Below are positions 7,975 to 54,954 of a stretch of 64,000 bases of DNA, piece by piece. The stretch spans positions 36,386,870-36,450,869 of the forward strand of contig NC_135168.1 of assembly GCF_041146795.1 (NCBI RefSeq). Direction: 5' to 3'. The DNA is from Maylandia zebra (taxonomy: Eukaryota; Chordata; Actinopteri; Cichliformes; Cichlidae). The notes under the pieces were generated by a model. The model was not told the DNA's origin. It worked only from the letters and a program-made list of their open reading frames with translations, and searched no databases. The translations under genes and the position numbers were made by a program. Positions within the stretch are counted from its first letter, which is position 1; each line of letters begins with the position of its first letter.

Positions 7975-8184
7975 TCTGACAGTTTTACCAACTTTTAGCC
8001 AGTTATAACACTGACATACTGTTGACTCCCATGCAAAATTAAAACAAAAAAAGAGAATAGAGAAATAAAAACTGATTTCTCAGGGTTTTTTTGGCCACTT
8101 CACTTTTTTTTGGTAATTTTCATCATAATCAAAGCTTGTGACTTTTTGGTACCTTGTAGCTTTTGCTGATGGGAATTACGGTGT

Positions 8185-8490
8185 GTTCACACCGAACGCG
8201 ATGGACGCGAATAGAGCGTCAGGTTTACATGTAAAGTCAATGGAAAGGCGCGATGACGCGCGATTGCGGGTCCCGCGAAAATTCGGAAGCAGATTTGCGT
8301 CGCGAAAACGCCAAAACGCGTGAAACGCGCGTCAGTGTAGCGCGTCTGGCGCGTTTGACTCGCGAATAAAACCACGCGCGTGAGTTTTTGTGTTGCATTT
8401 TGTGCATACGCGCGTTTCGCGTCTACCGCTCGAGTTGGAAAAATCTGAACTCCAGCGTCAAATCGCGCCGCGACAACCAATCAGGAGCCT
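8185..8490 (+). promoter_or_regulatory. CpG-rich subterminal region of Harbinger (left)
   Basis: About 300 bp with very high CpG density in otherwise AT-rich DNA, with many GCGCG, GCGTC, CGCGA and CGCGTG motifs in both orientations. In studied Harbinger elements the Myb-like accessory protein binds subterminal repeats, so these are candidate binding sites. The mirror copy is at about 17572-17877. Confidence 0.6.
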
Positions 8491-8554
8491 GGTGACGTGG
8501 CTGTTACCTAGGTCAAAGGGGCAGATCCAGCCAAAGCCTTTCATACTTCAATGG

Positions 8555-9664
8555 AGGGGAAGGCTAATCAATGCGGTAGCAAACAACTCGGAGCTGTACA
8601 ACACCAGCTGCTTTCAGTACCGAGACAGGAATAAAAAGGACCGAGCTTGGAGGAAGATATGTGAAGAGATCGGGCAACCTGGTAAGTTCATTCATTTCTC
8701 TTTTGAAAGTTTTCACTGACCCGGGGAAGCCGCACAAAAGCTAGCAAGCCACCGCTATTTTCCCACTGACGTACAAATACCGTTCTGCTTTTATGCATGT
8801 TGTCATTTAGGAATATATTTTATTGTTTATTAATAAACAGCACACAGTGGTCCCGCTGTTCATCCGTCACTGCTTTGCTTTTTCGCTGATTTTTTATTGC
8901 ACAGTACAGCATTGCATTCTGCAGCCTGATTGACAAATCTCCTGCGCTTGCCAAATTTATCACGTTTGGTTTTGATAACCATCGCGTCCAATAGAAAAAA
9001 CAGCACAAAAACACCCATAACTATGAGCCTCATTCGGAAATAGACACCTGCACCGTGAGGGAAAAAGGCGCACGAAAGTGGCGGGCAGATGAAGACAAAC
9101 CGCGGCATAATAATACTTTTACGTTTTGCAATCTACAAAGGTTTGCACTTTGAGAATCAATTGTGAGAACTGTGACCAGGGGATAGTTATTCTGAGAACC
9201 CCTGCAATAAATGAGGGACCACTGTCTACTCTACGATTATTATATCCAACCTGTTAACATTTAATACTGTATTGATAGAACCAACTGATTCTGCAGCAGA
9301 GCATCCCCAGTCCCTGAGCTCCTGCTGCTGCACCCACAGATATGTACAGCAAGCACTGATACCTTTTTAGTCGGTGGGATTCCCTTGTGATCACCTTTAC
9401 TAAATATCTACAACCAATCTGATTATATCCTGTTATTGTTTTTTGTTTTTTTTTCAATATTGAAATTAAAATCTAGTAGCAGCCTTCTCATTTCTTTGTG
9501 TTTTGTGCTGTTTTACAGGCCCACAGAGGAGGACGGCTCCGAGGCAGATGAGGGACGGGTCCCAGGACGGTCCATCGGCGGTGGAGCTGGCCATCCTGGA
9601 GTCCCTGAAGAGGCCACACCAGTCTCCAATGGAGCATTTCCTCCTCAGCCTTGTTCCTGCTCTG
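8555..9664 (+). pseudogene. Harbinger MADF/BESS-like DNA-binding protein, left copy
   Basis: Exon 1 (about 8555-8681) encodes a MADF/Myb-SANT-like stretch: RLINAVANNSELYN, then YRDRNKKDRAWRKICEEIG, ending at donor CCTG/GTAAGT. The acceptor TTTTACAG before 9519 continues in phase to a second exon whose end, EHFLLSLVPALE, resembles a BESS motif. In PIF/Harbinger elements this accessory protein helps the nuclease bind the ends. No ATG lies in frame just before the MADF motif (the frame reads LQWRGRLINAV), so the copy is probably not translated normally. Confidence 0.65.
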
Positions 9665-9879
9665 GAGAGCAGCTGGTCCTTTTTATTCCTGTCTCTCTGT
9701 AAATTCTTATATTTTATATATTTATGTTTAATGTTTTTCTGTTTGAGACTTTTAATATTATTTCAAATAAATGTTTATAATGACTAATGTCTCAGTTCTA
9801 CTACACAGCAAATGTTGGCACACAACTTGACACATGTAGAATTTATTTCATATTATACTAATGACAAAATATACTGATA

Positions 9880-10156
9880 CAGTGGGATGCAGAAGTTTGG
9901 GCAACCTTGTTAATAGACATTATTTTCCTGTATAAATCGTTGGTTGTTACAATAAAAAATGTCAGTTAAATATCATACAGGAGACACACACACAGTGATA
10001 TTTGAGAAGTGAAAAGAAGTTTACTGGATTTACAGAAAGTGTGCAATAATTGTTTAAACAAAATCAAGCAGGTGCATAAATTTGGGCACCACAAAAAAGA
10101 AATGAAATAAATATTTAGTGTATATCAATGTGTGTGTCTCCTATATGATATATGGG
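9880..10156 (+). mobile_element. Internally deleted Tc1-like element, left copy
   Basis: Starts CAGTGGGATGCAGAAGTTTG after TA and contains the long terminal-repeat sequence of a common fish Tc1 family (GGGCAACCTTGTTAATAGAC, then GTGCATAAATTTGGGCACC). It ends in the opposite-end motif GTGTCTCCTATATGATATA. All coding sequence is gone. It abuts the HARBI1 exon and replaces that gene's C-terminal part. Confidence 0.65.
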
Positions 10157-12791
10157 GTGCCTTTGTCTGGACGTGCTTCCCATCCAGAGCTGCACAGCAC
10201 AGAGGGAAGTTCCAGCGCTCCTGGAAATCCCTCTGTGATGGACCGCCAGTCTCCAGGTGAAGGCACAGCCATGAAGTCGTCCACTAGACAGTCCCAGATG
10301 GACGTCGCTGCCTGGGGGGTTATCTGGCTCACCGTGGACACACCGACTCTGAAACTGAACGCGATGGTCCTGAAGGAGTCCCCGGTGACAAGGAACCTGG
10401 ACAAAATTGTTCAAAATCAGTATTATGTGTACTGCAGTTACAAAATACATTATTCAAATTCCAAAATACTTTTGTGATGTCAGATATAAATCACAAAACT
10501 TAAATCTTACATAAAACATTTTGTAATTATAAGGATAATTACAAAATGTATATTAGATAATATCTAAAACAGTTGTGTTTTGTTTTAACTTTAACATATC
10601 ATAATTTGATTGGTAGCAACTTTCACAACTACAGTGAGCCAATCACTCATAATTCCTAAACATGTCAATCAGGTAGGAATGAAGTGAGACATTAATAGAA
10701 ATAAAGAGTTGTGTGTTGACATGTAGCCCTTTCCTTGCTTAAATTAGAGATGGCACGATACCACTTTTTTATGTCCGATACCGATACCGATATCATAAAT
10801 TTGGATATCTGCCGATACCGATATGAATCCGATATAGTGTTTTTTAATCAACAAAACTGTTTTTTTTAAATATCTTGCTGCATTTTGTATAAGTTCATAC
10901 TCAAGTTTAAAACAACAACTACACTAAAGCTATTCTGTTATACCTGTATGCAAAAAAAAATATTTCATAGTTCAGCAATACTGATCAATCTAATAAACTT
11001 AAACCTACACCATCCTCCCTATTCTGGTATTTTAAAGAGTACTTAGCATAAATATTAAGCAGCCTAACTAATAGGGTTCCAACTCCCAGCAACAACAAAA
11101 ATAAATAAATAAAAAATAGGGAACCACCCCTCACGCTCCACCTCATGATGCTTAATCGACGTAACCAACCTTAATTTGATGCAGTGTGAAAAAAAATGCA
11201 CAGAAATCAATTATTTTTCAAGAAATATTAAATAGATTCAACATCTTTCTTCAACAAAATTGCAGACTGCACAGATGGTACCTTCCCAAAGGAAAAAGTA
11301 CTATAGCTTACTAGGGTATATATATTAGACTTAATAGTTACTATATACAGTAATGGACTTCTATTTATTTTGCATCAAATTAAAACTTTGGGTGTCAGAT
11401 AATTATTTATTAAAAGCTAGACATTTTAAATGAGAATAAGAAAGAAAAGTATGTCTTTGTGCCCCCTTTTCCCTGTTAATGCTCTATCGGCCCCCCTGGC
11501 TAAACTTTGCTAGATCCGCCCCTGCACAGTTACCAGCGTCAGCTACAAAAGATCCTCGAGTAGAAAGTAATATTAAATACATTCTAACAACAGCTGATCA
11601 AGCTTAAACGTGCTGCTGTTGTTCAGCCGCTGGTTTCCTCTTTCTGGTGCAAAGTGGGCCAAAAGCAAACTAGAGACAGGGACTCGGACAGAAAAGCCGA
11701 TCAGCTGATCGTTAAGCAGTTTCATGATTGAAGCAGCAGCAGGAGAGGCAGTCGCTCCATATATCGTTTGTTAAGCTTAATGCAGGAATGCTTTACAAAC
11801 ATTCAGAGATGGACTTACACACTTGCTTTACTTCTCTCGGGATAACTTTGTCGGAGATGAAATGCCGGGTTGCTAGCGAAGCTCCAAATGCTATCCAGAC
11901 CACCGACAGGTCCCGCATGCCACAGCCGCTCTATCACGTGATGCATACTGCTCCGACGTGCTAACGTTCTGAGGTGAGTTACGGCGTGTTGCAAGTTTTG
12001 TGAGGTGCTTTTGTGATATTTAATGGATCGGATTACATTTTTTATTTTTCTCCGATATCCGATCCAGTAATTTAGGTCAGTATCGGACCGATACCGATAC
12101 GTAATATCGGATCGGTCCATCTCTAGCTTAAATCATTAATATTTTTGAAAAATTAATCTGTGATAAGACAGCTTATCAAGATAGAACCATGTAACTAGAG
12201 ATGAACCAAACTGTTCACAGTTTTATCTAACTCTGTTTTAATAAAGGCTGTGACCCCTGCTATAGAGTCTGACAGCTGCAGGGATTATATACAAATATTC
12301 AACTATCCCAGAATTAAACCAGGTCTAAATAAAAAGGAGTGAGTATCACTACAAAGGTTAACTCAGTGGTCCTAATGCTACAGTTTGATATCAGCAAACA
12401 CCGAGCGCATACATTGATGTGACACCACAGCCATGCTATCATGCAAACACTGATAACAGCATAAATCGAATTAAATCAGGACTTGATGAAACCTTCTGAG
12501 TATCACTAGAAATATTATAAAGAGTCGTCTCTGTACCACAGTTTGCTTTCAGTAAACACCGACAGCATTCACTGTTAGCATGGCACATCCATGTTAGCAG
12601 TGTATAACTGGATGGATTAGCATATTAGCACAGATATCAATAAAGGACTACCGTATTAAATAGTTTTACTAACCTCAGGCAGACGGACAGGCGCTCTGCA
12701 GGTGGGATTGAGCGTCTGTAGTTGGTGTCTAGGCGGGCGATGCTGGGACCGACGAGGGAAAGCAGGTCCTCAAACTGGCCGACGGTGATAG
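10157..12791 (-). pseudogene. HARBI1-like Harbinger nuclease, truncated, left copy
   Basis: Read on -, the exon at 12791-12674 encodes DLLSLVGPSIARLDTNYRRS and IPPAERLSVCLR, the N-terminal signature of fish HARBI1-like nucleases, and ends at donor CTGAG/GTTAGT. A hAT insertion lies in the intron. The next exon (10396-10157) encodes FLVTGDSFRTIAFSFRVGVS and continues in the family's pattern towards the WNFP/ALDG motif, frame-disturbed in this copy by a 1-bp difference from the right arm. Coding stops where Tc1 sequence begins, so the rest of the DDE domain is missing. Confidence 0.7.
10745..12125 (+). mobile_element. Non-autonomous hAT element nested in Harbinger, left copy
   Basis: Terminal repeats TAGAGATGG...CCATCTCTA are flanked by the exact 8-bp duplication GCTTAAAT (10737-10744 and 12126-12133). 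Both ends are dense in CGATACCGATA/TATCGG motifs, a hallmark of a widespread fish hAT repeat. Length is 1381 bp, with no transposase frame. It lies within the intron of the HARBI1-like gene. The mirror copy at 13939-15326 carries the same duplication. Confidence 0.9.
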
Positions 12792-12906
12792 CGCTGGAAT
12801 CGGCCGTCATCCAGGCGCAGCTCCTGGAGCAAGTGGTGAAACTCACCAAACTGCTCATGCCTCTGGAGGACCTGATGGACCCAGGTACGGCGAGGACGTC
12901 TTTTAC

Positions 12907-13126
12907 GCTGCTGCTCTGCTCTCCACAGTACATAGAGAAGGGAGTCTCCCGCTGCTGCTCTGCTCTCCACAGTACATAGAGAAGGGAGTCTCCCGCTGCT
13001 GCTCTGCTCTCCACAGTACATAGAGAAGGGAGACTCCCGCTGCTGCTTTGCTCTCCACAGTACATAGAGAAGGGAGACTCCCGCTGCTGCTCTGCTCTCC
13101 ACAGTACATAGAGAAGGGAGTCTCCC
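12907..13126 (+). repeat. Five-copy 44-bp tandem array at the palindrome centre
   Basis: Units start with GCTGCTGCTCTGCTCTCC at 12907, 12951, 12995, 13039 and 13083, exactly 44 bp apart, and end GAAGGGAG(T/A)CTCCC. The fifth unit is joined head to head to its own inverse at GGGAGTCTCCC (centre 13121). This makes a perfect local hairpin of at least 38 bp per arm. The right arm has only one inverted unit, so the array is asymmetric. Sequence outside the array is the 5' region of the HARBI1-like gene. Confidence 0.95.
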
Positions 13127-13269
13127 TTCTCTATGTACTGTGGAGAGCAGAGCAGCAGCGTAAAAGACGTCCTCGCCGTACCTGGGTCCATCAGGTCCTC
13201 CAGAGGCATGAGCAGTTTGGTGAGTTTCACCACTTGCTCCAGGAGCTGCGCCTGGATGACGGCCGATTC

Positions 13270-15911
13270 CAGCGCTATCACCGTCGGCCAGTTTGAGGAC
13301 CTGCTTTCCCTCGTCGGTCCCAGCATCGCCCGCCTAGACACCAACTACAGACGCTCAATCCCACCTGCAGAGCGCCTGTCCGTCTGCCTGAGGTTAGTAA
13401 AACTATTTAATACGGTAGTCCTTTATTGATATCTGTGCTAATATGCTAATCCATCCAGTTATACACTGCTAACATGGATGTGCCATGCTAACAGTGAATG
13501 CTGTCGGTGTTTACTGAAAGCAAACTGTGGTACAGAGACGACTCTTTATAATATTTCTAGTGATACTCAGAAGGTTTCATCAAGTCCCGATTTAATTCGA
13601 TTTATGCTGTTATCAGTGTTTGCATGATAGCATGGCTGTGGTGTCACATCAATGTATGCGCTCGGTGTTTGCTGATATCAAACTGTAGCATTAGGACCAC
13701 TGAGTTAACCTTTGTAGTGATACTCACTCCTTTTTATTTAGACCTGGTTTAATTCTGGGATAGTTGAATATTTGTATATAATCCCTGCAGCTGTCAGACT
13801 CTATAGCAGGGGTCACAGCCTTTATTAAAACAGTTAGATAAAACTGTGAACAGTTTGGTTCATCTCTAGTTACATGGTTCTATCTTGATAAGCTGTCTTA
13901 TCACAGATTAATTTTTCAAAAATATTAATGATTTAAGCTAGAGATGGACCGATCCGATATTACGTATCGGTATCGGTCCGATACTGACCTAAATTACTGG
14001 ATCGGATATCGGAGAAAAATAAAAAATGTAATCCGATCCATTAAATATCACAAAAGCACCTCACAAAACTTGCAACAGCCGTAACTCACCTCAGAACGTT
14101 AGCACATCGGAGCAGTATGCATCACGTGATAGAGCGGCTGTGGCATGCGGGACCTGTCGGTGGTCTGGATAGCATTTGGAGCTTCGCTAGCAACCCGGCA
14201 TTTCATCTCCGACAAAGTTATCCCGAGAGAAGTAAAGCAAGTGTGTAAGTCCATCTCTGAATGTTTGTAAAGCATTCCTGCATTAAGCTTAACAAACGAT
14301 ATATGGAGCGACTGCCTCTCCTGCTGCTGCTTCAATCATGAAACTGCTTAACGATCAGCTGATCGGCTTTTCTGTCCGAGTCCCTGTCTCTAGTTTGCTT
14401 TTGGCCCACTTTGCACCAGAAAGAGGAAACCAGCGGCTGAACAACAGCAGCACGTTTAAGCTTGATCAGCTGTTGTTAGAATGTATTTAATATTACTTTC
14501 TACTCGAGGATCTTTTGTAGCTGACGCTGGTAACTGTGCAGGGGCGGATCTAGCAAAGTTTAGCCAGGGGGGCCGATAGAGCATTAACAGGGAAAAGGGG
14601 GCACAAAGACATACTTTTCTTTCTTCTTTCTTATTCTCATTTAAAATGTCTAGCTTTTAATAAATAATTATCTGACACCCAAAGTTTTAATTTGATGCAA
14701 AATAAATAGAAGTCCATTACTGTATATAGTAACTATTAAGTCTAATATATATACCCTAGTAAGCTATAGTACTTTTTCCTTTGGGAAGGTACCATCTGTG
14801 CAGTCTGCAATTTTGTTGAAGAAAGATGTTGAATCTATTTAATATTTCTTGAAAAATAATTGATTTCTGTGCATTTTTTTTTCACACTGCATCAAATTAA
14901 GGTTGATTACGTCGATTAAGCATCATGAGGTGGAGCGTGAGGGGTGGTTCCCTATTTTTTATTTATTTATTTTTGTTGTTGCTGGGAGTTGGAACCCTAT
15001 TAGTTAGGCTGCTTAATATTTATGCTAAGTACTCTTTAAAATACCAGAATAGGGAGGATGGTGTAGGTTTAAGTTTATTAGATTGATCAGTATTGCTGAA
15101 CTATGAAATATTTTTTTTTGCATACAGGTATAACAGAATAGCTTTAGTGTAGTTGTTGTTTTAAACTTGAGTATGAACTTATACAAAATGCAGCAAGATA
15201 TTTAAAAAAAACAGTTTTGTTGATTAAAAAACACTATATCGGATTCATATCGGTATCGGCAGATATCCAAATTTATGATATCGGTATCGGTATCGGACAT
15301 AAAAAAGTGGTATCGTGCCATCTCTAATTTAAGCAAGGAAAGGGCTACATGTCAACACACAACTCTTTATTTCTATTAATGTCTCACTTCATTCCTACCT
15401 GATTGACATGTTTAGGAATTATGAGTGATTGGCTCACTGTAGTTGTGAAAGTTGCTACCAATCAAATTATGATATGTTAAAGTTAAAACAAAACACAACT
15501 GTTTTAGATATTATCTAATATACATTTTGTAATTATCCTTATAATTACAAAATGTTTTATGTAAGATTTAAGTTTTGTGATTTATATCTGACATCACAAA
15601 AGTATTTTGGAATTTGAATAATGTATTTTGTAACTGCAGTACACATAATACTGATTTTGAACAATTTTGTCCAGGTTCCTTGTCACCGGGGACTCCTTCA
15701 GGACCATCGCGTTCAGTTTCAGAGTCGGTGTGTCCACGGTGAGCCAGATAACCCCCCAGGCAGCGACGTCCATCTGGGACTGTCTAGTGGACGACTTCAT
15801 GGCTGTGCCTTCACCTGGAGACTGGCGGTCCATCACAGAGGGATTCCAGGAGCGCTGGAACTTTCCTCTGTGCTGTGCAGCTCTGGATGGGAAGGACATC
15901 CAGACAAAGGC
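13270..15911 (+). pseudogene. HARBI1-like Harbinger nuclease, truncated, right copy
   Basis: Exon near 13270-13392 encodes the same LLSLVGPSIARLDTNYRRS start. The exon at 15675-15911 runs from FLVTGDSFRTIAFSFRVGVS through WRSITEGFQERWNFPLCCAA to LDGKDIQTKAP. This includes the WNFP and (I/L)DGKH-like motif that carries the first catalytic aspartate in HARBI1 nucleases. Tc1 sequence then replaces the remainder. Better preserved than the left copy but lacking the rest of the catalytic domain, so it cannot encode a working nuclease. Confidence 0.75.
13939..15326 (-). mobile_element. Non-autonomous hAT element nested in Harbinger, right copy
   Basis: Mirror of 10745-12125, flanked by ATTTAAGC (13931-13938 and 15327-15334), the reverse complement of the left copy's GCTTAAAT duplication. 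It is 7 bp longer, mainly from an extra purine-run unit near 14629. The shared duplication shows one insertion event that was later copied with the arm. Confidence 0.9.
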
Positions 15912-16190
15912 ACCCCATATATCATATAGGAGACACACACATTGATATACACTAAATATTCATTTCATTTCTTTTTTGTGGTGCCCAAATTGATGCACCT
16001 GCTTGATTTTGTTTAAACAATTATTGCACACTTTCTGTAAATCCAGTAAACTTCTTTTCACTTCTCAAATATCACTGTGTGTGTGTCTCCTGTATGATAT
16101 TTAACTGACATTTTTTATTGTAACAACCAACGATTTATACAGGAAAATAATGTCTATTAACAAGGTTGCCCAAACTTCTGCATCCCACTG
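15912..16190 (-). mobile_element. Internally deleted Tc1-like element, right copy
   Basis: Mirror of 9880-10156, ending CATCCCACTG followed by TA at 16190. It carries the same internal deletion and the same junction with the HARBI1 exon, so the insertion and deletion predate arm duplication. Confidence 0.65.
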
Positions 16191-16404
16191 TATCAGTATA
16201 TTTTGTCATTAGTATAATATGAAATAAATTCTACATGTGTCAAGTTGTGTGCCAACATTTGCTGTGTAGTAGAACTGAGACATTAGTCATTATAAACATT
16301 TATTTGAAATAATATTAAAAGTCTCAAACAGAAAAACATTAAACATAAATATATAAAATATAAGAATTTACAGAGAGACAGGAATAAAAAGGACCAGCTG
16401 CTCT

Positions 16405-17507
16405 CCAGAGCAGGAACAAGGCTGAGGAGGAAATGCTCCATTGGAGACTGGTGTGGCCTCTTCAGGGACTCCAGGATGGCCAGCTCCACCGCCGATGGAC
16501 CGTCCTGGGACCCGTCCCTCATCTGCCTCGGAGCCGTCCTCCTCTGTGGGCCTGTAAAACAGCACAAAACACAAAGAAATGAGAAGGCTGCTACTAGATT
16601 TTAATTTCAACATTGAAAAAAAACAATAACAGGATATAATCAGATTGGTTGTAGATATTTAGTAAAGGTGATCACAAGGGAATCCCACCGACTAAAAAGG
16701 TATCAGTGCTTGCTGTACATATCTGTGGGTGCAGCAGCAGGAGCTCAGGGACTGGGGATGCTCTGCTGCAGAATCAGTTGGTTCTATCAATACAGTATTA
16801 AATGTTAACAGGTTGGATATAATAATCGTAGAGTAGACAGTGGTCCCTCATTTATTGCAGGGGTTCTCAGAATAACTAGCCCCTGGTCACAGTTCTCACA
16901 ATTGATTCTCAAAGTGCAAACCTTTGTAGATTGCAAAACGTAAAAGTATTATTATGCCGCGGTTTGTCTTCATCTGCCCGCCACTTTCGTGCGCCTTTTT
17001 CCCTCACGGTGCAGGTGTGTATTTCCGAATGAGGCTCATAGTTATGGGTGTTTTTGTGCTGTTTTTTCTATTGGACGCGATGGTTATCAAAACCAAACGT
17101 GATAAATTTGGCAAGCGCAGGAGATTTGTCAATCAGGCTGCAGAATGCAATGCTGTACTGTGCAATAAAAAATCAGCGAAAAAGCAAAGCAGTGACGGAT
17201 GAACAGCGGGACCACTGTGTGCTGTTTATTAATAAACAATAAAATATATTCCTAAATGACAACATGCATAAAAGCAGAACGGTATTTGTACGTCAGTGGG
17301 AAAATAGCGGTGGCTTGCTAGCTTTTGTGCTGCTTCCCCGGGTCAGTGAAAACTTTCAAAAGAGAAATGAATGAACTTACCAGGTTGCCCGATCTCTTCA
17401 CATATCTTCCTCCAAGCTCGGTCCTTTTTATTCCTGTCTCGGTACTGAAAGCAGCTGGTGTTGTACAGCTCTGAGTTGTTTGCTACCGCATTGATTAGCC
17501 TTCCCCT
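16405..17507 (-). pseudogene. Harbinger MADF/BESS-like DNA-binding protein, right copy
   Basis: Mirror of the left copy: exon 1 at 17507-17381 with donor GTAAGT, exon 2 from 16551 with EHFLLSLVPALE. The protein sequence in the compared exons is the same as in the left arm. Confidence 0.65.
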
Positions 17508-17877
17508 CCATTGAAGTATGAAAGGCTTTGGCTGGATCTGCCCCTTTGACCTAGGTAACAGCCACGTCACCAGGCTCCTGATTGGTTGTCGCGGCGCGAT
17601 TTGACGCTGGAGTTCAGATTTTTCCAACTCGAGCGGTAGACGCGAAACGCGCGTATGCACAAAATGCAACACAAAAACTCACGCGCGTGGTTTTATTCGC
17701 GAGTCAAACGCGCCAGACGCGCTACACTGACGCGCGTTTCACGCGTTTTGGCGTTTTCGCGACGCAAATCTGCTTCCGAATTTTCGCGGGACCCGCAATC
17801 GCGCGTCATCGCGCCTTTCCATTGACTTTACATGTAAACCTGACGCTCTATTCGCGTCCATCGCGTTCGGTGTGAAC

Positions 17878-30136: not shown

Positions 30137-31222
30137 TCATATCTTCAGATCGTCTATTCTAGTCTTGCTGTTGCTGTGTTTGGCACTGTGGCCAGGCCTG
30201 GCCTGCGTAGGTGACCCAGGGGCAGATCCTGCTCCCTTCTTTCCTTTCAGGTCACATTCCTCTGGCTTGCTGGTGCTGCTCCTCTCCACCGCCAAGTTGT
30301 CCTTGTTCTGTTTGTAGGCTGCCTTGCTGTGGTAGGGGTGGAAGGACGAGTCTGTGGCCGCGGTGTAGCACGGCACTGGTGGGTAAGCTGGCTGGACTTG
30401 GCGGTGCTCGTGGAAGTAGTCATCGTAACTTGGGGCAAATGGCACTGCAGTCTCGCCAGGCTCCTTGGAGATACTCCCATTGGACTGGTTGCGCCTCCTG
30501 AAGGTGATGCCCTGGCTGCACTTGGTGAAACCCAGATGGTAGATCTCTATGAGGTTGAGGAACAGAGACACAGAGGCCACTCCAAGCATAAAGATGATGA
30601 AGATGGTTTTCTCTGTGGGGCGGGATATGTAGCAGTTAACCACATTGGGGCAGGGGGGTCTGTCACATGTGTACATGGGTTTGAGCTCAAAGCCGTACAA
30701 AAAGTACTGGGCCACGATGAAGCCCACCTCAAACAGCGTCTTGAAGATCACATTGAAGACATATGTCCGCAAAAGCTCCCCCTGCAGGCGGACTCGTCCC
30801 TTATTGTCTCTTATCAGAGCCTTCTTGTGCTTCACATCCACAATGACAGTCTGTTTGTCTGATTGATGACTGTGCTCCTTTTCTCTCTCCTTTTCTTTCT
30901 CCTTCTGCTTTTCCTCCATCCGGACTAGATGGAGAATGTGCCCCAGGTATATCAGAGTCGGTGTGGATACAAAGATTATCTGCAGCACCCAGAACCGGAC
31001 GTGAGATATGGGGAAAGTGATGTCATAGCATACGTTCTCGCAACCGGGCTGCTTGGTGTCGCAGGTGAAGCCCGACTGCTCGTCGCCCCACACCTTCTCT
31101 GTCGCAGCACTCAGGATCAGGATGCGGAAGATGAACAGGACAGTGAGCCACACCTTCCCCACGACGGTGGAGTGCTCCTGGGCTTTTTCCAGGAGCTTTC
31201 CCAGCAGGTTCCAATCCCCCAT
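30137..31222 (-). CDS. Gap junction alpha-type connexin (gja3-like)
   Basis: Single coding exon of 361 residues with four membrane segments (about 23-43, 77-97, 155-180 and 210-230). Connexins assemble as hexamers into plasma-membrane hemichannels that dock into gap junctions. Extracellular loop 1 has the three invariant cysteines (C54, C61, C65; [12 protein letters not shown]), and loop 2 has [12 protein letters not shown] with SRPTEKTIF. The start [19 protein letters not shown] and the [10 protein letters not shown] cytoplasmic-loop entry place it in the alpha group, nearest Cx46 (GJA3) in my reading. Its C-terminus ends [10 protein letters not shown], like the DDL(E/A/S)I-type ends of alpha connexins. 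A charged [10 protein letters not shown] stretch fills the loop. A 5' UTR intron is likely: acceptor TGTAG/TCCTAG at 31246, donor GTAAGAG at 31381. The exact fish paralogue name is uncertain. Confidence 0.9.
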
Positions 31223-31382
31223 GGCTGTGAGAGGTCAGATCTAGGACTACAGAGGATTTGAAAATAGAAAAAGTTATTTCATCTATAGACTGTTGTACAC
31301 AGCAACAGAGATTAAATGACTACAGTAAAACTAATCCTGAGCGTACGCCTCATCCTTCCTGACGACTAAAAATTCTCTTACC

Positions 31383-34653: not shown

Positions 34654-35481
34654 TCAGAAAGCAGAACACCTCTCACCCCTCTCGGCTGGGCTCTTTTTGG
34701 TCACAGTGAACTTAGACTTGAGAGAATGATCTGCTATCAGCTGATTGATTTCATTTTGCTTGTAAGTGGACAATCTTTGGCTTATCCATGGTAACTTTGA
34801 CTCGTCTTCAGAGCTGCGGAAGGACCGTTTGCAGGCCCTGCCTATGAGGTACACCACCTCTGCCAGGTTGAGCAGCACACACACCGCAGACACTGCCAGC
34901 ATGAACACAGTGAATATGGTCTTTTCTGTCGGTCTGGAGACAAAGCAGTCCACCGTATTGGGGCAAGGGAATGAGTCACATTTCACCAAACGCACCATCT
35001 TAAAGTCAGGATAGATCAAGTAAAAGATGTAGAGAAAAGCCACTTCGAAAATTATTCTAAAGATGATACTGATCATGTATGTCCACCACAGAGCGCCCGT
35101 GATCTGAAACTTCTGGTTCTTGATGTGTTCCAGCTCTTTGGGACTACTGCGGCCTGCCCTCTTCAGGATCTTCTTGTCGATGTGCCTTCGGTGGGCTACG
35201 TGCATGGCCACTAAGAGTGCAGGGGTGGAGACCAGGATGAGCTGGAGTGCCCACAGACGGATGTGTGAAATTGGGAAGAACTGGTCGTAGCAGACGCTAT
35301 TGCAGCCGGGCTGCTGGGTGTTGCAGGTGAAGCCGGACTTTTCATCGCCCCAGACGCTCTCCGCAGCAACCACCAGGACCAGGATGCGGAAGATGAAGAT
35401 GACAGACAGCCAGACGCGTCCGATGCCAGTAGAGTGCCTGTTTACACCGCTGATCACGGCATAAAAGGACCCCCAGTTCAT
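34654..35481 (-). CDS. gjb1: Gap junction beta-1 protein (connexin 32)
   Basis: Single coding exon of 275 residues, close throughout to mammalian Cx32 (283 residues). Cx32 forms gap junctions in liver and myelinating glia. The start [20 protein letters not shown], loop 1 cysteines C53/C60/C64 ([12 protein letters not shown]), [37 protein letters not shown] and [12 protein letters not shown] match the beta-1 type. The C-terminal YKQNEINQL motif and CSAF end are conserved; human ends CSAC, a prenylation (CaaX) site. An acceptor TTTTCCCCAG at 35496 gives a 15-bp leader before the ATG, so a 5' untranslated exon lies upstream. It is neighbour to another connexin but from a different subgroup. Confidence 0.95.
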
Positions 35482-35495
35482 TTTCGACTCCAGGT

Positions 35496-37741
35496 CTGGG
35501 GAAAAGGGGATTAATATAAGTTTTTACAGGTGTAGGCAGTTACATGTGTGGGATGCTTTGCATCTAAAAATCACCCAAAATTCTAATTACTAAGAAAATT
35601 TACTCCCTTTTTTATTACTGGCATGAAGTCACAATGGCTTGCCAGTTAAATAAGGTCTTTAGACTATAACTGCACACAAAACTTAGCATTTCAGAAAAAA
35701 TCGAACCGGTGTAACATGAGTAGTTAGAGGTTTACCAGGCTCAGCCGGCGGTGCAAGCGGCGTAAGCAGCACCGGGTCCAAAGATGACCATCTTGAAGTA
35801 TGACCTGAGCATCAAGCCGGATTTGGCAGTCAGGAACAACAGACAAGAATTGCCAAGTAGCCTGCCGGCTGTATAAAAACAGGGGCGATGGCCTGCCATC
35901 ATGCACCGTCAGAAGACGCAACAGGTTGAAACCAATTGCAAAACATTTGCAGAACCACGTGATATGCTCATCCTGTATTAATACTCTACTCCCAGGCTGG
36001 CTTACAGCCCAACTGCAGACAGACTGACAGACTGCCAGCAAATTTCTCCAAGGGAGCAGCAAGACATGCATCTCATTGAGGCTTTCCTTTTTTTTTTTTC
36101 CCCTTGAGAGATCTCTATTGTTTGAGAATAGCTATGTTCTTTAAGGTTTTCCTTTAACAGATCTTAAAATTATGTGACTTTTAAAGCATATTCAGTAAAA
36201 CATTGCTACCATAAAGGGAATGATGATGAGACCGTAAGCATGCCAAGTATTTGCCAAGTCAAGTCACTGGGGCATGTCAGTCATCACTCACCCCAAATCC
36301 AACCTCTCACTGAATGTTAGTATAAAACAATTAGAAAGGAGATAACATGAATTTTTACCTTCAGCTGCTGGTGGTACACAAAAATGTGTACAAAATGGGA
36401 AGAAATAAATTCAAATTTGTGTTTTTTAGCGAGCCAAAAGGCTGGATTGAGAACACCATGCGTTTGGAAAATGCTAATCATTCCTCCGCCACTAGCCACT
36501 GCCCTGCACCGTAGCGGTCATATGCTCTTATATAAACTATTTACATACAATGGCACCCTTTATGGGGCTGCAACAAGACTCTTTCAGAATTCAGATCAAA
36601 CGCCTCGATTTCCGCCTACCCCGGGGCAAAAGAAAGAATCTGTGTGGACACAAAAGGCCTCAGCCTGCCACATTATTTATTGTGCTTGGCAGGGCAGGGA
36701 AGTGAAGGACGCTGTTGACCCGAGTCACTGCTGCTGCGACATTAACAGGTTTACGAATTCACACAGATTATATATGAACTAGGGAACTACTGCATAGTCT
36801 AATGGAGTGGCTAATTTGAATGCTACAGCACTTTAAAAGATTGATTTGATTAAATTGTCATTTGCACTTTAAAAATAAAATACAGCTTTAATTTTTGATG
36901 TTACCTAGACTTTTTAATTCCAACAATACTAGCACAAGAATATATTAACCCAGTCACACAGGTTAGTCCAGTTAGGTCCAATATAACATGTTACCAAATG
37001 GTTCATATTAAAAGTTATTATTTACATAGCACCGTCAACAGGTTAGTTGTGGTCACACCCCCTTCCACGTAACAGTAGAAACCATGATTTACGGCAACAC
37101 AACGTGGTCGTTTGTCATGTACAATCAGATGACACACAGTGGCTCACTGTGCCATGGGTTTTCCTGCATCACTCGCAGGCCGTAGTGGGAGGGTTTGGGT
37201 GGCCTGCTAATAATCTGAATGAACTGCACCTCATTTACATTCTCTCTACACAAGGAAGAGACACAAATGTGCAATTGTAGCAAACACATCTTTATTTCAA
37301 AGGCAAATCTGCACAAATAATGATAGGTTTGCCATTGCATAAGAACAATATTATTAAGTCAGCAAAGCTTTTCTGTGATCAAAGAAAAATTATACATTTA
37401 AAAAACAAAACCAAAAAAGACCTGTTGTACCATGCAGATAAGGTAATAATATAGATATGAATACAACTTAATAGAAAGCGGGTAATCAGACTGAGCAGGC
37501 ACTGTCTAGTGGCTAAAAATAATCAGGACTTGAAATACAGTTCTGTTCTTAAACACAGCAAAATGGAACAGGTTAACCAATATCTTTAAATTATACAGTC
37601 AAAATAAAACAAGCAAAACTAGTTTTGTATGCTTTCCCTGTACATAAAGAATAAAAGCTCGAGATACAAAAGAAAAACATGACTTAATGTGTACTAGTCC
37701 AGTTAATCCTTTATAAATCTACTTTTAATTTCTTTCTTTCT

Positions 37742-37743: not shown

Positions 37744-37831
<88 letters not shown>
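37744..37831 (+). repeat. (CA)n microsatellite
   Basis: An uninterrupted run of about 44 CA units. It begins 5 bp beyond the stop codon of the tudor-domain gene, so on the - strand it is a (GT)n run at the very start of that gene's 3' UTR. Confidence 0.95.
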
Positions 37832-37832
<1 letters not shown>

Positions 37833-44688: not shown

Positions 44689-46802
44689 TCACACCATAAC
44701 AGATCTCTGTGTGCAGCACAGCTTCCTGCTGAACATGATGAAAACTGCTAACAAAACAATTGCAAATAAGACAATTATCATCATTTGTCCAAAATGAACT
44801 TCCTGTGCCTTTGTGCGCAATGAACAGTACAATGAAGGGTTCATCAGATATTCTGTCACCGTAAGGTTTCTAACTCTCGTAAAGCATTCTGCCTCACTGA
44901 TATCGGGCACTGTAATCTCCGTCTCATTTAAGACCATCAACCATCTGTTGTCACAGCAGTTGAAAGGATTCCCGCTTATATGCATGACGGTAAGGTTTGT
45001 GGATAAAGCACGAATCAACGAAGGGTTTAAAGTTATAAAAACATTATGTCTTATGTCAATTTCTCTCAGGGGAGAACAACTTAAACTTCTGGGAATTGTA
45101 TCCAGCAGGTTGTTCGATACGTTCAGGTGGGTTAATGCCGGCATGCACGGTAGAGACAACAGACGAGAGCTGGTTAAGTTGATCTCACTGATAATTAAGG
45201 ACTGAAGAGTTGTTTGCACACCTTCTAGCGCCCCCTCTTGCATGACCAGTGATGGATTTTTTGCAAGGCTGAGGGAAACCAAAGAAGTCCCCTGAAATGT
45301 GTTAGGCTGAAGCATTTTTATGCCATTTCCTTTAAGATTGAGGTGTTTTAGAGTCCCTAAGTAGGCGAATTCAACACAAAGGTCATCAAGATTTGTTTGC
45401 TGTGTTGAGTTAATGCTTCCTAAGTGATCAGCAGAAGTGCAAGGTTGGACTGAGTTGTCTTGCAGATTTAGTCTTTCTATTTGTGCGAGTGCACTGAGAA
45501 AAGGTGGGGAAATATATACCAGCCTGTTGCTTTGCAGGTCAAGGTGCTTTAGGGAGCGGAAGAAAAGCTGGCGAAGGGGTCCTGAGTCAGAGTCATTTCT
45601 CACATCCCAGATGATGCTTTGTAGACAGTTATAGCTGAGATTCAGAGTTTCTAAAGACAGCAATAGGCTTAAAGTCTCGATTGGGAAAGACCTGAAATGG
45701 TTGTAGCTCAGGTCAATATAAATCAGTGGCATGGGCCTCCAGTTTGAGTGTAGGTTGTTTTTTATTGCAATTTTTTCACCTACAATCTCACTATAAAGAG
45801 AATTTGTCTCTGACACCAAAGCAGCCTCTGAATAGGAACCGATCATGTTATTCTGTAAATAAAGATACCGCAAACGGTTCGTTTTCGGAACGATTGGAAA
45901 ATAAAGAAGTTTGTTGTGGCTGAGATCAAGAACTTCAAGCCTGTACAGCCTGCTGTCCTCATGTGTGACAAAAAACTCTACAGAGTTTCTGCTCAGATTT
46001 AGAAATTTCACTTGACGCAATTTAAAATCACAAATGTGCGCAAGATTGTTTTTAGCCAAGTTTAACACCTCTAATTGGATCAGTGATTCGAACGTCCCTT
46101 CTTCGATCTCAGATATCAGATTGTCGTCAATAGCAATGGCCCTCAGGCTTTTACTCTCTGTGAATAATTTGTGTGAAAGTCTTGTTAAAGCATTACCGGT
46201 CATCTTGAGCTGATCGAGGGCGGATTTGTTTCTAAGGTAGTGCTCGGCTGCAAAGTCACTCAGGCCGTTCATTGATATGTCCAAATCCTTCAGCCCGCTG
46301 AGGGATTGGAGGGCTTTGCTGTTATTGCCAAGGTTGTTGTTTAGTTCGTTTCTGGACAAATTCAGCTGCTCAAGTCGAACCAGGTTTTCAAACAGCCCCT
46401 CGGAGATGAGATCCAGCTGGTTGTTGCTCAAGTCCAGCTGCTCCAAGCAAGGCAGCTCAAGCTTGTGCAGCTGTCTGATGAAGTTATTGGACAGGTCCAG
46501 TCTTCTGATCCTTATATCCAAATCCACAGGGATAGAAGAGAGATTCCGATTGTTCCAGGACTGCTCCTTGAAATTAAAGGAACACAGTGTGAGCCTCAGA
46601 GATGGGGCACTTTTAAAAAATATCAAAACCAGCAATTCTGTAGGCTTAAGAAATAAATAAATAGTGCAAATTTAAAAACATTTAGCATTTATATTGATCA
46701 TGTTGAACCTACCCTCGAAGCATAATACGTCAGTCCTGTTACGCAAAGGTCATGGCTGAGTGACCAGAGTAGTAGGAAGTTGGAGAACATATGTCTGACC
46801 AT
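44689..46802 (-). CDS. lrrc32: LRRC32 (GARP)/NRROS-family leucine-rich repeat receptor
   Basis: Two exons, 46802-46709 and 46637-44689, join in frame to 680 residues. Exon 1 gives the start and a signal peptide (MVRHMFSNFLLLWSLS...). The second exon has no usable ATG at its 5' end, so the first exon is needed. About 20 leucine-rich repeats follow (LDLSNNFI, LNLSRNEL, LDLSHNKL and so on), then a C-terminal cap (NPFNCCDNRWL), one transmembrane helix (MMIIVLFAIVLLAVFIMF) and a short tail. GARP and NRROS bind latent TGF-beta at the cell surface. The FKLRQVKFLNLSRNSVE region, the LPCMPALTHLNVSNN repeat and the NCCDNRWL cap favour LRRC32 over NRROS in my reading. The intron of 71 bp is short and its junction (GTAG/GTTCAA to CTACAG/AA) was picked by phase. 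Confidence 0.8.
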
Positions 46803-51033: not shown

Positions 51034-54014
51034 TTATCCGTTCTGTCCAGCAGATGGAGCCTCTCCAAGTCTGACACTTCCCAGGAAAGTGGTGTGGTTG
51101 GTCATATTGATGAGTGTGTACTCATGAGCTATGCGTATATAGATCTTTTGGCCAGCGCGGAGTGGGCTCACACCAGCCGTGTAGCAGGTGTTGAATTTGC
51201 GCTGGCCCGTCTCAATGCTGCAAGTACAGCGGAGGAATGGGCTGGAGTCCACCATCACATCATAGCTGGCAATGTCAGTGAAGTTGAGGTAGTACACCTG
51301 GTAAATGGGGCGGGGAGGGGGCGGAGGAGGGGGGCGTACAAATCACAAGACTTTAAAGTGTGTACGACTCCACATGATAATTTCAGGGGTTAGTTAAAGC
51401 TGAAACAGCTGCAATATTAAAGAAGCCAGCATGAATATGAGTTATGAAGCTTCACATTTAGCCACAGGGAAAGGGCAAAAGAAATACATCTTACATTAAA
51501 AAGGTAACATGTATATGCTTAAACAAAGCAGACAGGTCAACTCTGTCATTCTTGAGCTTAGCTTTAGAACGACTGCCAGCTCTTTTGACTATCAACTGTA
51601 AATTTAAAGAGTTACGTCAAGGACCGTACTCACTTCTACCTGACTATATATGAAGTAGACACCGTCCAACAGCACCTCTAGCTGCCCAGTGCGAGAGTGC
51701 ATTTTAAACACGCGGTGATGGATGGACACCATCTTCCAATTCTTAAGGATGCCTTGAGACAGATCTAAACATGTCACAACAAACACACAAAGAGGGTCAA
51801 CATAAACAGCTTTCAGCAGAGCTTAACTGCAACCAGAGCTCAGCATTGACACACAGTATAAACCTGCTAATGATGCTTACCTGTGATGTGATGAAGGATA
51901 ATCAGAATCAGTTAGCATGCAACATGAGTATGAGTTACCATTCCAGATTGTAAAACGGCTATAGGATAACTTTAGGATGTCTATAATCCTACACAGTGCT
52001 ATGGGTAAAAACTGGCAGTAACATTTACCCTGGATAGAAAATCCTTGGTGAGCACAGAAATACTTAAAAATGACCAAATCTGGCATGCTGGATCTCAAGT
52101 ATAAACATTCACTGCATGTCAACAATCTACTGTGTTTATATTTTTTCTCTTGTAATTCTGAGGTTTAGCAGGCACGTCTATTAGCACACATCCAGAACTC
52201 TGTGTTTAACCAATGGCAGGGATTATGCATGCTTTTTTGTTCTTTGTGACTAAATGAGCGTAGACTGAGCACCCACCTTCTCTGACTTGGATCGTAGTTT
52301 CCTGCCCCTGCAAGTGAACCACTGCTGGCTGGAAGACAAAAGATCTCTGGTGACTAATCCAAATTCACGTAAAACAGGAGAACAGCTGTTTCACCAGAAG
52401 CTGCGACTGGGAGAAAATTGTATGCAAAATTTTAAAACGGTGACATACTCTTACCTGGAATTCCTTTGTTTTGCCCTTGTCAGGAACCCCTGCAAGAGCA
52501 AGAGGGAGACGTGTTCAAATTCTGGCCTCTGCACTGCCGAGGTGAGAGGATGATTAAAAGAAAACAAACTCTGGCATAGTTTAAAGATAGATCATTTCTG
52601 CTCCACACAATGTTTGACATCCTGCACCAGAAACTCTCACAGTGCGAGCAATGAGTGAATCAATTTTGACAACTTGAGCCCCATTCTGCTGTGGGAAAGT
52701 GTCTGGATACAGGAAATAACTGTAATCTAAGAAAAGGATCTCTCTGCTCGTTTTCAAGCTCTCTGGCTCGAGTATTGCTTATTGAGGAGGATTCGATGCA
52801 AGTTATATACCTGCTGGACCTTGAGCGCCTGGTGGTCCTTGTGGCCCAGGAGGTCCTGGAGGCCCTGCAGGTCCCACAACATTGCTTCCTGGAATACCTG
52901 GGATTCCAGGGATACCCGGTGGCCCCTGTGGACCTGGGGGACCAGGAGGGCCAGGTGGTCCTGGCACAGGCCTTTTTTTCACTGTGGAGAAAGATGGAAT
53001 AAACGGTTAGCACTCAAGTTAGTGATTTGTGGTGATTTATAATTAAAACTAATTTGCCGGCAAGTATTACATTTACATAGATACTGAAAGCTTGTCGCCC
53101 ACTTTGAGTTAAGGCGGTTTTTGGATGACTTCAAGTGCATTTGTAGAAACGTGCAGCAGATAACAGTCAAATGAATGACCATAATAACAGAAACGTATGC
53201 CGGATTTTGTCATACCTCTTTTTTTCTCTTTCCTTTTTTCCTTTCCAGTTGATTCTGAAAGAAACCGAAGCAGCGTGATTAAGCTTCAAATGCCCTCTTC
53301 AACAATTATCATCTCAAATGACACATCGAGCATCCAGATCATTCCATGTAGGTATCCTAAATAGGCTGAAATAACAGATTGAGATGGTGTGCACTGAACA
53401 CTAGAGTGGAGGTATGTCAGTCTGTGGTATCTTGTAGTGTAGTAATTTGTAAGTGTGGTTTCACCTCCTCTGTATGAACAAGTGCCTTAAGCATTCACAG
53501 GCAGTGGAACTGGAGAAGATCATTAGAGAGATACTTTATCCTGCCAAAATCCTTTTCTTTGAATTAAGCCCAGATGGAGAATGCAGATGAAAGTGTGTGT
53601 GTTTGCATGTGTGTTTGTGTGTGTGCGTGTCTCCTCCTTTACAACCATGTGTATGGATGTGCATGCACGGATGTTGGTGAGGCATCTATGTCAGTGCTTG
53701 AAAGCACTCTGTGTTTGCATCTGCAAGAGGGTGTGTGCGCGCGCACGTATATGTGCCGCGCACAGCTGAAGAATCCTTTTCAAAAAGCTGTCTCGGTTGC
53801 TCTTGTGTTTACCATGTCATTATAACTACAAAGGCCATTTAACCTTAAACCCTCACAGTTTGAGTCCCCCCTCAAACATATGGCCAGTGTTTCTCCTCTG
53901 GCTAAATGACTGGATGCATCCGCATAGATTTCTCTTAACGAGCAGCCCTATCTGGAATCTGGTGCCCGTTAGGAGTGCCGAGGACGCACACACGTGCGCA
54001 CATGTGCAAACACA

Positions 54015-54097
<83 letters not shown>

Positions 54098-54917: not shown

Positions 54918-54954
<37 letters not shown>

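Follow-up and report, generated by a model that had tools for sequence, protein, structure and literature searches.

How did a transposon of the cichlid Maylandia zebra come to be joined to an inverted copy of itself? The question is raised by a 64,000-nucleotide stretch of contig NC_135168.1 (C2:36386870-36450869 in a genome of 962 Mb in 63 contigs; hereafter, the window), in which positions 8185-17877 read as their own reverse complement. In a self-BLAST of the window, this region gave one inverted match with 98.55% identity over 9723 columns (E = 0), which confirms, as a real feature of the assembly, the two near-identical inverted arms of ~4.7 kb reported in a preliminary description of the locus. 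The symmetry point is 13121. The left arm (8185-13120, plus strand, 4936 bp) and the right arm (13122-17877, minus strand, 4756 bp) contain the same left-end portion of a Harbinger-like element in opposite orientations. Both outer ends are the same (left) end of the element, and the interpretation of the locus as an inverted dimer also stands. Each arm combines ~3.4 kb from the left of the element with a nested insert (1381 or 1388 bp); both lack the right ~230 bp of the element, for which a single copy, L009, runs on past the point where the palindrome turns. The left arm is 180 bp longer than the right, mainly by four additional 44-bp units, and the asymmetric centre accounts for much of the 1.5% non-identity in the self-match. 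Outside the centre, alignment of the palindrome to its own reverse complement (8185-12945 and its partner, ~4.76 kb) revealed 13 single-base differences, corresponding to 0.27% substitutions, and six indels of 8, 1, 1, 7, 1 and 2 bp.

The family to which the arms belong is Harbinger-like, non-autonomous and young, with a length of ~3.6 kb. First, when an arm was used as the query, many further copies were found (75 matches reported, with the best 40 of 3547 candidates scored), and the 20 loci that we fetched (L009-L028), mostly ~3.6 kb in length, match the insert-free arm at 96-99.5% per aligned piece. Second, the left-end pattern occurs 147 times in the genome at ≤3 mismatches, compared with no occurrence of the reversed control. 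Third, the element has terminal inverted repeats (TIRs): 36 bp are identical between both ends of L009, one base of which is the flanking A. PIF/Harbinger elements generate a 3-bp TWA target site duplication upon insertion, and the same TWA triplet is found on both sides in 19 of the 24 single copies checked; those without a matching triplet are L013, L014 and L015 (which represent one duplicated locus), L023 and C17b, and the right end of L026 was unmatched. We consider the family young because the mean pairwise distance among 17 single copies is only 0.84%.

Do both arms descend from one such copy? The main evidence that they do is the nested insert, located at 10745-12125 on the plus strand of the left arm, where it is flanked by the 8-bp sequence GCTTAAAT (10737-10744 and 12126-12133), and at 13939-15326 on the minus strand, the homologous position in the right arm, where ATTTAAGC borders it. 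The insert ends are TAGAGATGG and CCATCTCTA, and the 8-bp GCTTAAAT stands on both sides of the insert in both arms. An 8-bp target duplication and short TIRs characterise hAT elements; judged from these features of its sequence, the insert is hAT-like. The insertion site is empty in all 20 fetched loci, and a 171-bp probe spanning the insert junction found full-length matches in the two palindrome arms only (best 40 of 1239 candidates scored), the other 38 listed matches starting at probe position ≥71 and thus comprising the insert with no more than 15 preceding bases. The arms also have in common a 2-bp insertion and two substitutions that none of the 17 single copies in the comparison has; a further common column is an artefact of the scripted removal of the insert. 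Because the insert, its 8-bp duplication and these private changes are common to both arms, we deduced that the arms come from one copy, and because the insert is present in both, that the dimer formed after the insert had been taken up, unless one arm later acquired the insert from the other. In trees, from which L014 and L015 were omitted because they duplicate the L013 locus (and, in one tree, both C17 copies as too divergent), the arms pair with a support of 0.92. Their terminal branches measure 0.27% and 0.12%, compared with the mean single-copy distance of 0.84%, and the dimer therefore formed within the recent activity of the family.

The outer ends of the palindrome differ in their completeness. 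On the left, the triplet TTA (8176-8178), a candidate target site duplication, is followed by CGGTGTGTTCACACCG..., the start of the complete left TIR CGGTGTGTTCACACCGAACGCGATGGACGCGAATA (8179-8213, plus strand), which is the sequence involved in the 36-bp end identity of L009. On the right, the terminal repeat (17849-17877, minus strand) stops at ...GGTGTGAAC, six bases short of the full end, and is followed by CTTCATCTG with no TTA. The claim that the same Harbinger repeat bounds both sides is thus correct as to the element end and has to be amended for the right terminus. The palindrome halts either exactly at the transposon terminus or no more than 6 bp from it, not in the flank, and no match was found between the two outer flanks in the self-alignment of the window. 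The shortfall at the right terminus would be explained by the loss of approximately nine bases after insertion or by the imprecise joining of a cut end.

At the centre, the 29-bp sequence CATAGAGAAGGGAGTCTCCCTTCTCTATG (13107-13135) has a single occurrence in the genome at ≤2 mismatches, which rules out the dimer as a repeated mobile family. Single copies read GGGAGACTCTCTCTTC where the palindrome turns. The palindrome itself reads GAGAAGGGAGTCTCCCTTCTC, compared with GAGAAGGGAGACTCTCTCTTC in the 20 fetched loci (with one base changed in L025); therefore, the sequence of the right arm follows that of the single copies as far as the end of GGGAGACTC. The turn occurs at a GAG-A-CTC microhomology, a minimal inverted repeat located ~230 bp from the right end of the element. 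Template switching and the trimming of a hairpin tip would leave an identical centre. To the left of the centre, there are five tandem 44-bp units (12906-13125, plus strand), and to the right, one; each of the 20 fetched loci contains a single unit per element copy. The unit is composed of the last 39 bases of the arm and five bases beyond the centre, and because it includes these five bases, the expansion arose after the turn. The middle base is T in units 1, 2 and 5 and A in units 3 and 4, a pattern that would fit the flipping of a hairpin tip.

A second asymmetry lies within the left arm. Six of the 19 arm differences are clustered in 148 bp (simulation, P = 0.004, for a width that was picked after the cluster had been seen). 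The overall spread of the 19 is compatible with uniformity (Kolmogorov-Smirnov P = 0.36; P = 0.29 for the longest identical run, of 940 bp). No copy in the alignment of the arms with 17 single copies carries the whole cluster; some of its states occur singly in L013, L016, L018, L020, L024 and L025. With a probe covering 10060-10260, two other places, C2:40513991 and C1:28847371, were found to match all 201 bases, at 359 bits compared with 363 for a perfect match (best 40 of 341 candidates scored). The locus fetched from the first of these, L037, is 92.6% identical to the left arm over 1780 columns and 94.7% over 749 columns. It has the left-arm state at 10078, 10109, 10172 and 10206 and the extra A at 10225, at all of which the right arm and L009 carry the other state, and it differs from the left arm at 10052 and 10243; the difference at 10175 within the patch is private to the right arm. 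We read this pattern as an ectopic gene-conversion patch that spans 148-190 bp of the left arm (plus strand; minimal extent 10078-10225, maximal extent 10053-10242), for which the donor would have been a copy of an older subfamily, as are the donor-like copies. The preliminary description had proposed that the arms are either young or kept alike by conversion. Their youth is upheld, and conversion between the arms is unsupported, in that the arms have independent private changes, their differences are spread in a way compatible with uniformity and the patch makes them differ. Cichlids accumulate 3.5e-9 mutations per base and generation; with the nine substitutions (~0.2%) that remain between the arms without the patch, the dimer would be roughly 280,000 generations old, a figure that depends on this assumed rate and indicates the order of magnitude only.

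How, then, might the dimer have formed? The evidence fixes the order of states, from a hAT-bearing copy through a dimer without right ends to the expansion of the centre and ectopic conversion. The account that we favour, with slightly better than even confidence, is that the hAT-bearing Harbinger-like copy was converted into an inverted dimer by a transposase cut at its left end combined with fold-back or template switching at GAG-A-CTC. The sequence shows the anatomy, the descent from a single copy, the unique centre and its microhomology, the one-sided expansion, the ectopic patch and the lack of a right duplication; the cutting, the fold-back copying and the order of joining are what we infer. 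One recently active non-autonomous copy, with the hAT-like insert already present, would have been cut by transposase at its left end, with a break in its right part. The broken strand would have folded back, or switched template, at GAG-A-CTC and been copied out to the cut left end, and replication would have produced a perfect dimer with two left ends. This dimer would either sit or have been re-inserted at a TTA site, with the right end losing 6 bp and any target duplication at joining or later. Thereafter, the 44-bp units would have grown on one side of the centre, and the left arm would have gained its conversion patch from an older copy. We favour cutting combined with fold-back or template switching because it would yield arms that mirror each other base for base and a palindrome that ends at a transposon terminus. 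Origin-dependent inverted-repeat amplification is a known route to palindromes that involves switching at short inverted repeats (PMC10766186). If it had acted alone, the palindrome would be expected to run into the flank, which is not the case here.

Several observations weigh against this account. GAG-A-CTC provides a 3-bp stem and a 1-base loop, which is weak for a direct snap-back. The right arm is nearer to L010 (0.30%) and L009 (0.33%) than to the left arm (0.36%), which we attribute to the conversion patch and to short branches. The outer triplets, TTA on the left and CTT on the right, are not the matching pair expected from transposition as a unit, and the right side has no target duplication that would support the dimer having moved in one piece. 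Finally, a search for an empty site through paralogues of the right flank found none: its first ~85 bp matched nowhere else (best 40 of 85 candidates scored).

The main rival is that local transposition came first, placing a daughter copy beside its parent with the right ends facing, and that the right ends were then lost symmetrically by hairpin-tip cleavage and re-closure. We regard this as possible but rather doubtful; its weight comes from other close pairs of the family, particularly those on C12 and C13. Among 112 left-end positions (100 + 12 of the 147, with at least 35 outside the count), seven pairs lie ≤25 kb apart, compared with 0.32 expected under random placement over 962 Mb, and five of the seven, the palindrome included, are convergent; the 25-kb limit was set after the list had been seen. 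On C12, two copies face each other with their right ends ~13 kb apart, have separate target duplications and differ by 3 mismatches in 3375. On C13 (L016, 1001-8085; C13:34843481-34850565), facing sister copies with 10 mismatches in 3364 are separated by ~25 bp between the aligned copies and have right-end remnants mid-way, one right tip reading as the tip sequence inverted, and no matching outer duplication (outer triplets TAA and GGG). However, a separate, nearly base-exact symmetric deletion would be required to derive the palindrome from such a pair, and the junction in L016 is irregular, unlike that of the palindrome. Moreover, the other pairs are mixed. L013, L014 and L015 (C5:8762402, C5:8751227 and C4:4864059 onwards) agree throughout the ~25-30 bp of flank that were compared on each side, so that in the C5 pair and the C4 copy the surrounding segment itself seems to have been duplicated; the C17 copies are far more diverged; a pair on C14 consists of non-sisters; and a further C14 pair, 7.3 kb apart, is divergently oriented.

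A less probable alternative, and in our judgement an unlikely one, is abortive gap repair after excision, in which the broken right end would have been templated on the left TIR of the sister and the two half-copies joined mid-way. The 36 identical bases at the ends of L009 would allow such a misalignment, and in Galileo of Drosophila willistoni, TIR extension and the entry of a secondary insertion into both TIRs are described (PMC4168063). The C14 non-sisters (L031 and L032; C14:115380-132460) also speak for this alternative: they occupy a TAA site in almost identical flanks but in opposite orientations, with their left ends ~17 kb apart, differ by 0.65% and have no private columns in common, which points either to repeated insertion at the same site or to a change of orientation by repair from another copy. 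However, after gap repair the right flank of the palindrome should retain the target duplication and a full tip, and it has neither; nor would half-copies need to join at the same base.

An artefact of sequencing or assembly, such as a hairpin read or mis-joined copies, is highly improbable. Judging from the assembly, we agree with the earlier view that a simple read-hairpin is unlikely: the flanks are distinct, the ends coincide with the TIR, the arms have 19 differences outside the centre, the 44-bp expansion is one-sided and the conversion patch is confined to one arm. That two unrelated insertions of the family should have come to face each other by chance is barely credible: convergent pairs do exist elsewhere in the genome, but the arms have the nested insert and private changes in common (of which the insert counts against chance unless conversion spread it between the arms) and meet at a centre without a spacer.

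Both arms retain remnants of coding sequence. The MADF domain (PF10545) was detected in the family (E = 3.7e-8; 34 bits, with a cut-off of 22). In the left arm, the predicted exon of this MADF/Myb-like DNA-binding domain is located at 8564-8686 (plus strand), corresponding to residues 61-101 of the open reading frame at 8384-8719; in the right arm, the open frame with the same exon (17343-17678, minus strand) has a 111-amino-acid translation identical to that of 8384-8719. A Myb-like second protein is a component of PIF/Harbinger elements (PMC9179366). A truncated transposase exon is found at 10141-10410 (minus strand) in the left arm, where the additional A from the conversion patch altered the frame, and at 15661-15945 (plus strand) in the right arm, where the open frame is recognisable up to ...ALDGKDIQTKAP. 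DDE_Tnp_4 (PF13359) was detected in 8 of 35 listed relatives of the transposase fragment and PF13613 in two. The fragment itself reached 16.3 bits with HTH_Tnp_4, under the 27-bit cut-off, and Sigma70_r4 scored equally high and likewise under its cut-off; a search of solved structures returned only four matches, with E-values of 0.84 or worse. The copies examined have no more of the transposase than this; no full Harbinger transposase was identified, and the copies are presumably moved by another element. L034 was rejected as a candidate for the full transposase: its 348-amino-acid frame, judged by eye, resembles a nested Tc1-type transposase. At the point where the transposase frame breaks off, positions 9880-10140 and their right-arm partner contain the stretch ...GCAGAAGTTTGGGCAACCTTG..., which is presumably a common fish repeat and may mark the event that turned the family non-autonomous.

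Has such an accident been seen before? Among the titles listed in searches of the open-licence literature, on Harbinger with palindromes or inverted duplications and on cichlids or teleosts, none describes this case. Long natural palindromes have been described as unstable and rare (PMC10766186), and we consider the present one a well-preserved case of a rare but known type of accident. The preliminary description placed its size far beyond that of ordinary fold-back elements; large it is, although an inverted repeat of nearly equal size, the 8.2-kb goldentouch repeat of Midas cichlids, has been published (PMC8758764). Both are near-perfect, transposon-derived and found in cichlids. In contrast, the goldentouch repeat, as described there, derives from piggyBac and has a 4.1-kb stem whose arms differ by two single-base indels, and it is intronic and associated with a colour morph, in the gold allele; the palindrome described here is Harbinger-like, with more diverged arms, a nested insert, an expanded centre and ectopic conversion. 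In Galileo (PMC4168063), class II ends likewise extend and absorb internal sequence and secondary insertions, but the family contains many structural variants, whereas here there is one dimer with termini from a single element end. A 15.4-kb palindromic mouse transgene (PMC8701086) resembles our case as a large, perfect inverted dimer whose centre was later rearranged so that symmetry was broken, mostly by small deletions there and by a one-sided tandem expansion here.

A close structural parallel is Mu killer, a derivative of maize MuDR (PMC3440606), an inverted duplication of a class II element in which both TIRs come from one element end, the remaining sequence is absent and both halves contain inverted partial transposase genes. 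The dimer, too, has outer termini from one element end and inverted parts of a transposase gene. It differs in superfamily and kingdom; the halves of Mu killer reach 1.298 kb into the gene, compared with arms of ~4.76 kb here, the centre of Mu killer resisted amplification and sequencing, and its silencing activity is known. By analogy, a long hairpin RNA of the MADF and transposase exons, made by transcription that starts outside either left end and runs across the centre, might seed small RNAs that silence the young family, which would make the dimer a vertebrate Mu killer; we consider this very unlikely, and nothing in the sequence evidence examined indicates a host function. If it were true, the accident would have been a self-made brake on the very transposon that produced it. 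More generally, because the genome contains many, nearly identical copies of the parent family, the turn point, the missing end, the one-sided expansion and the ectopic patch can be read at the level of single bases. Considered with the goldentouch repeat and the differently built C13 pair, the palindrome suggests that large inverted dimers can remain after class II elements have multiplied in bursts in cichlids; such dimers may affect genes or give rise to hairpin RNA.

Elsewhere in the window, an open-frame scan, which is less than a full annotation, identified no host gene at the palindrome. A single LRRC32/LRRC33-like frame (44689-46671) has 95% identity to a protein of Oreochromis aureus; the same search lists two entries at 100% and a Haplochromis burtoni entry at only 82%, with 87% of the query aligned. 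Two adjacent connexin frames (PF00029) lie on the minus strand at 30137-31234 and 34654-35523 and are 75% alike over 196 columns. In the self-alignment, dinucleotide-type simple repeat tracts were common to 37744-37832, 54007-54096 and 54919-54952.

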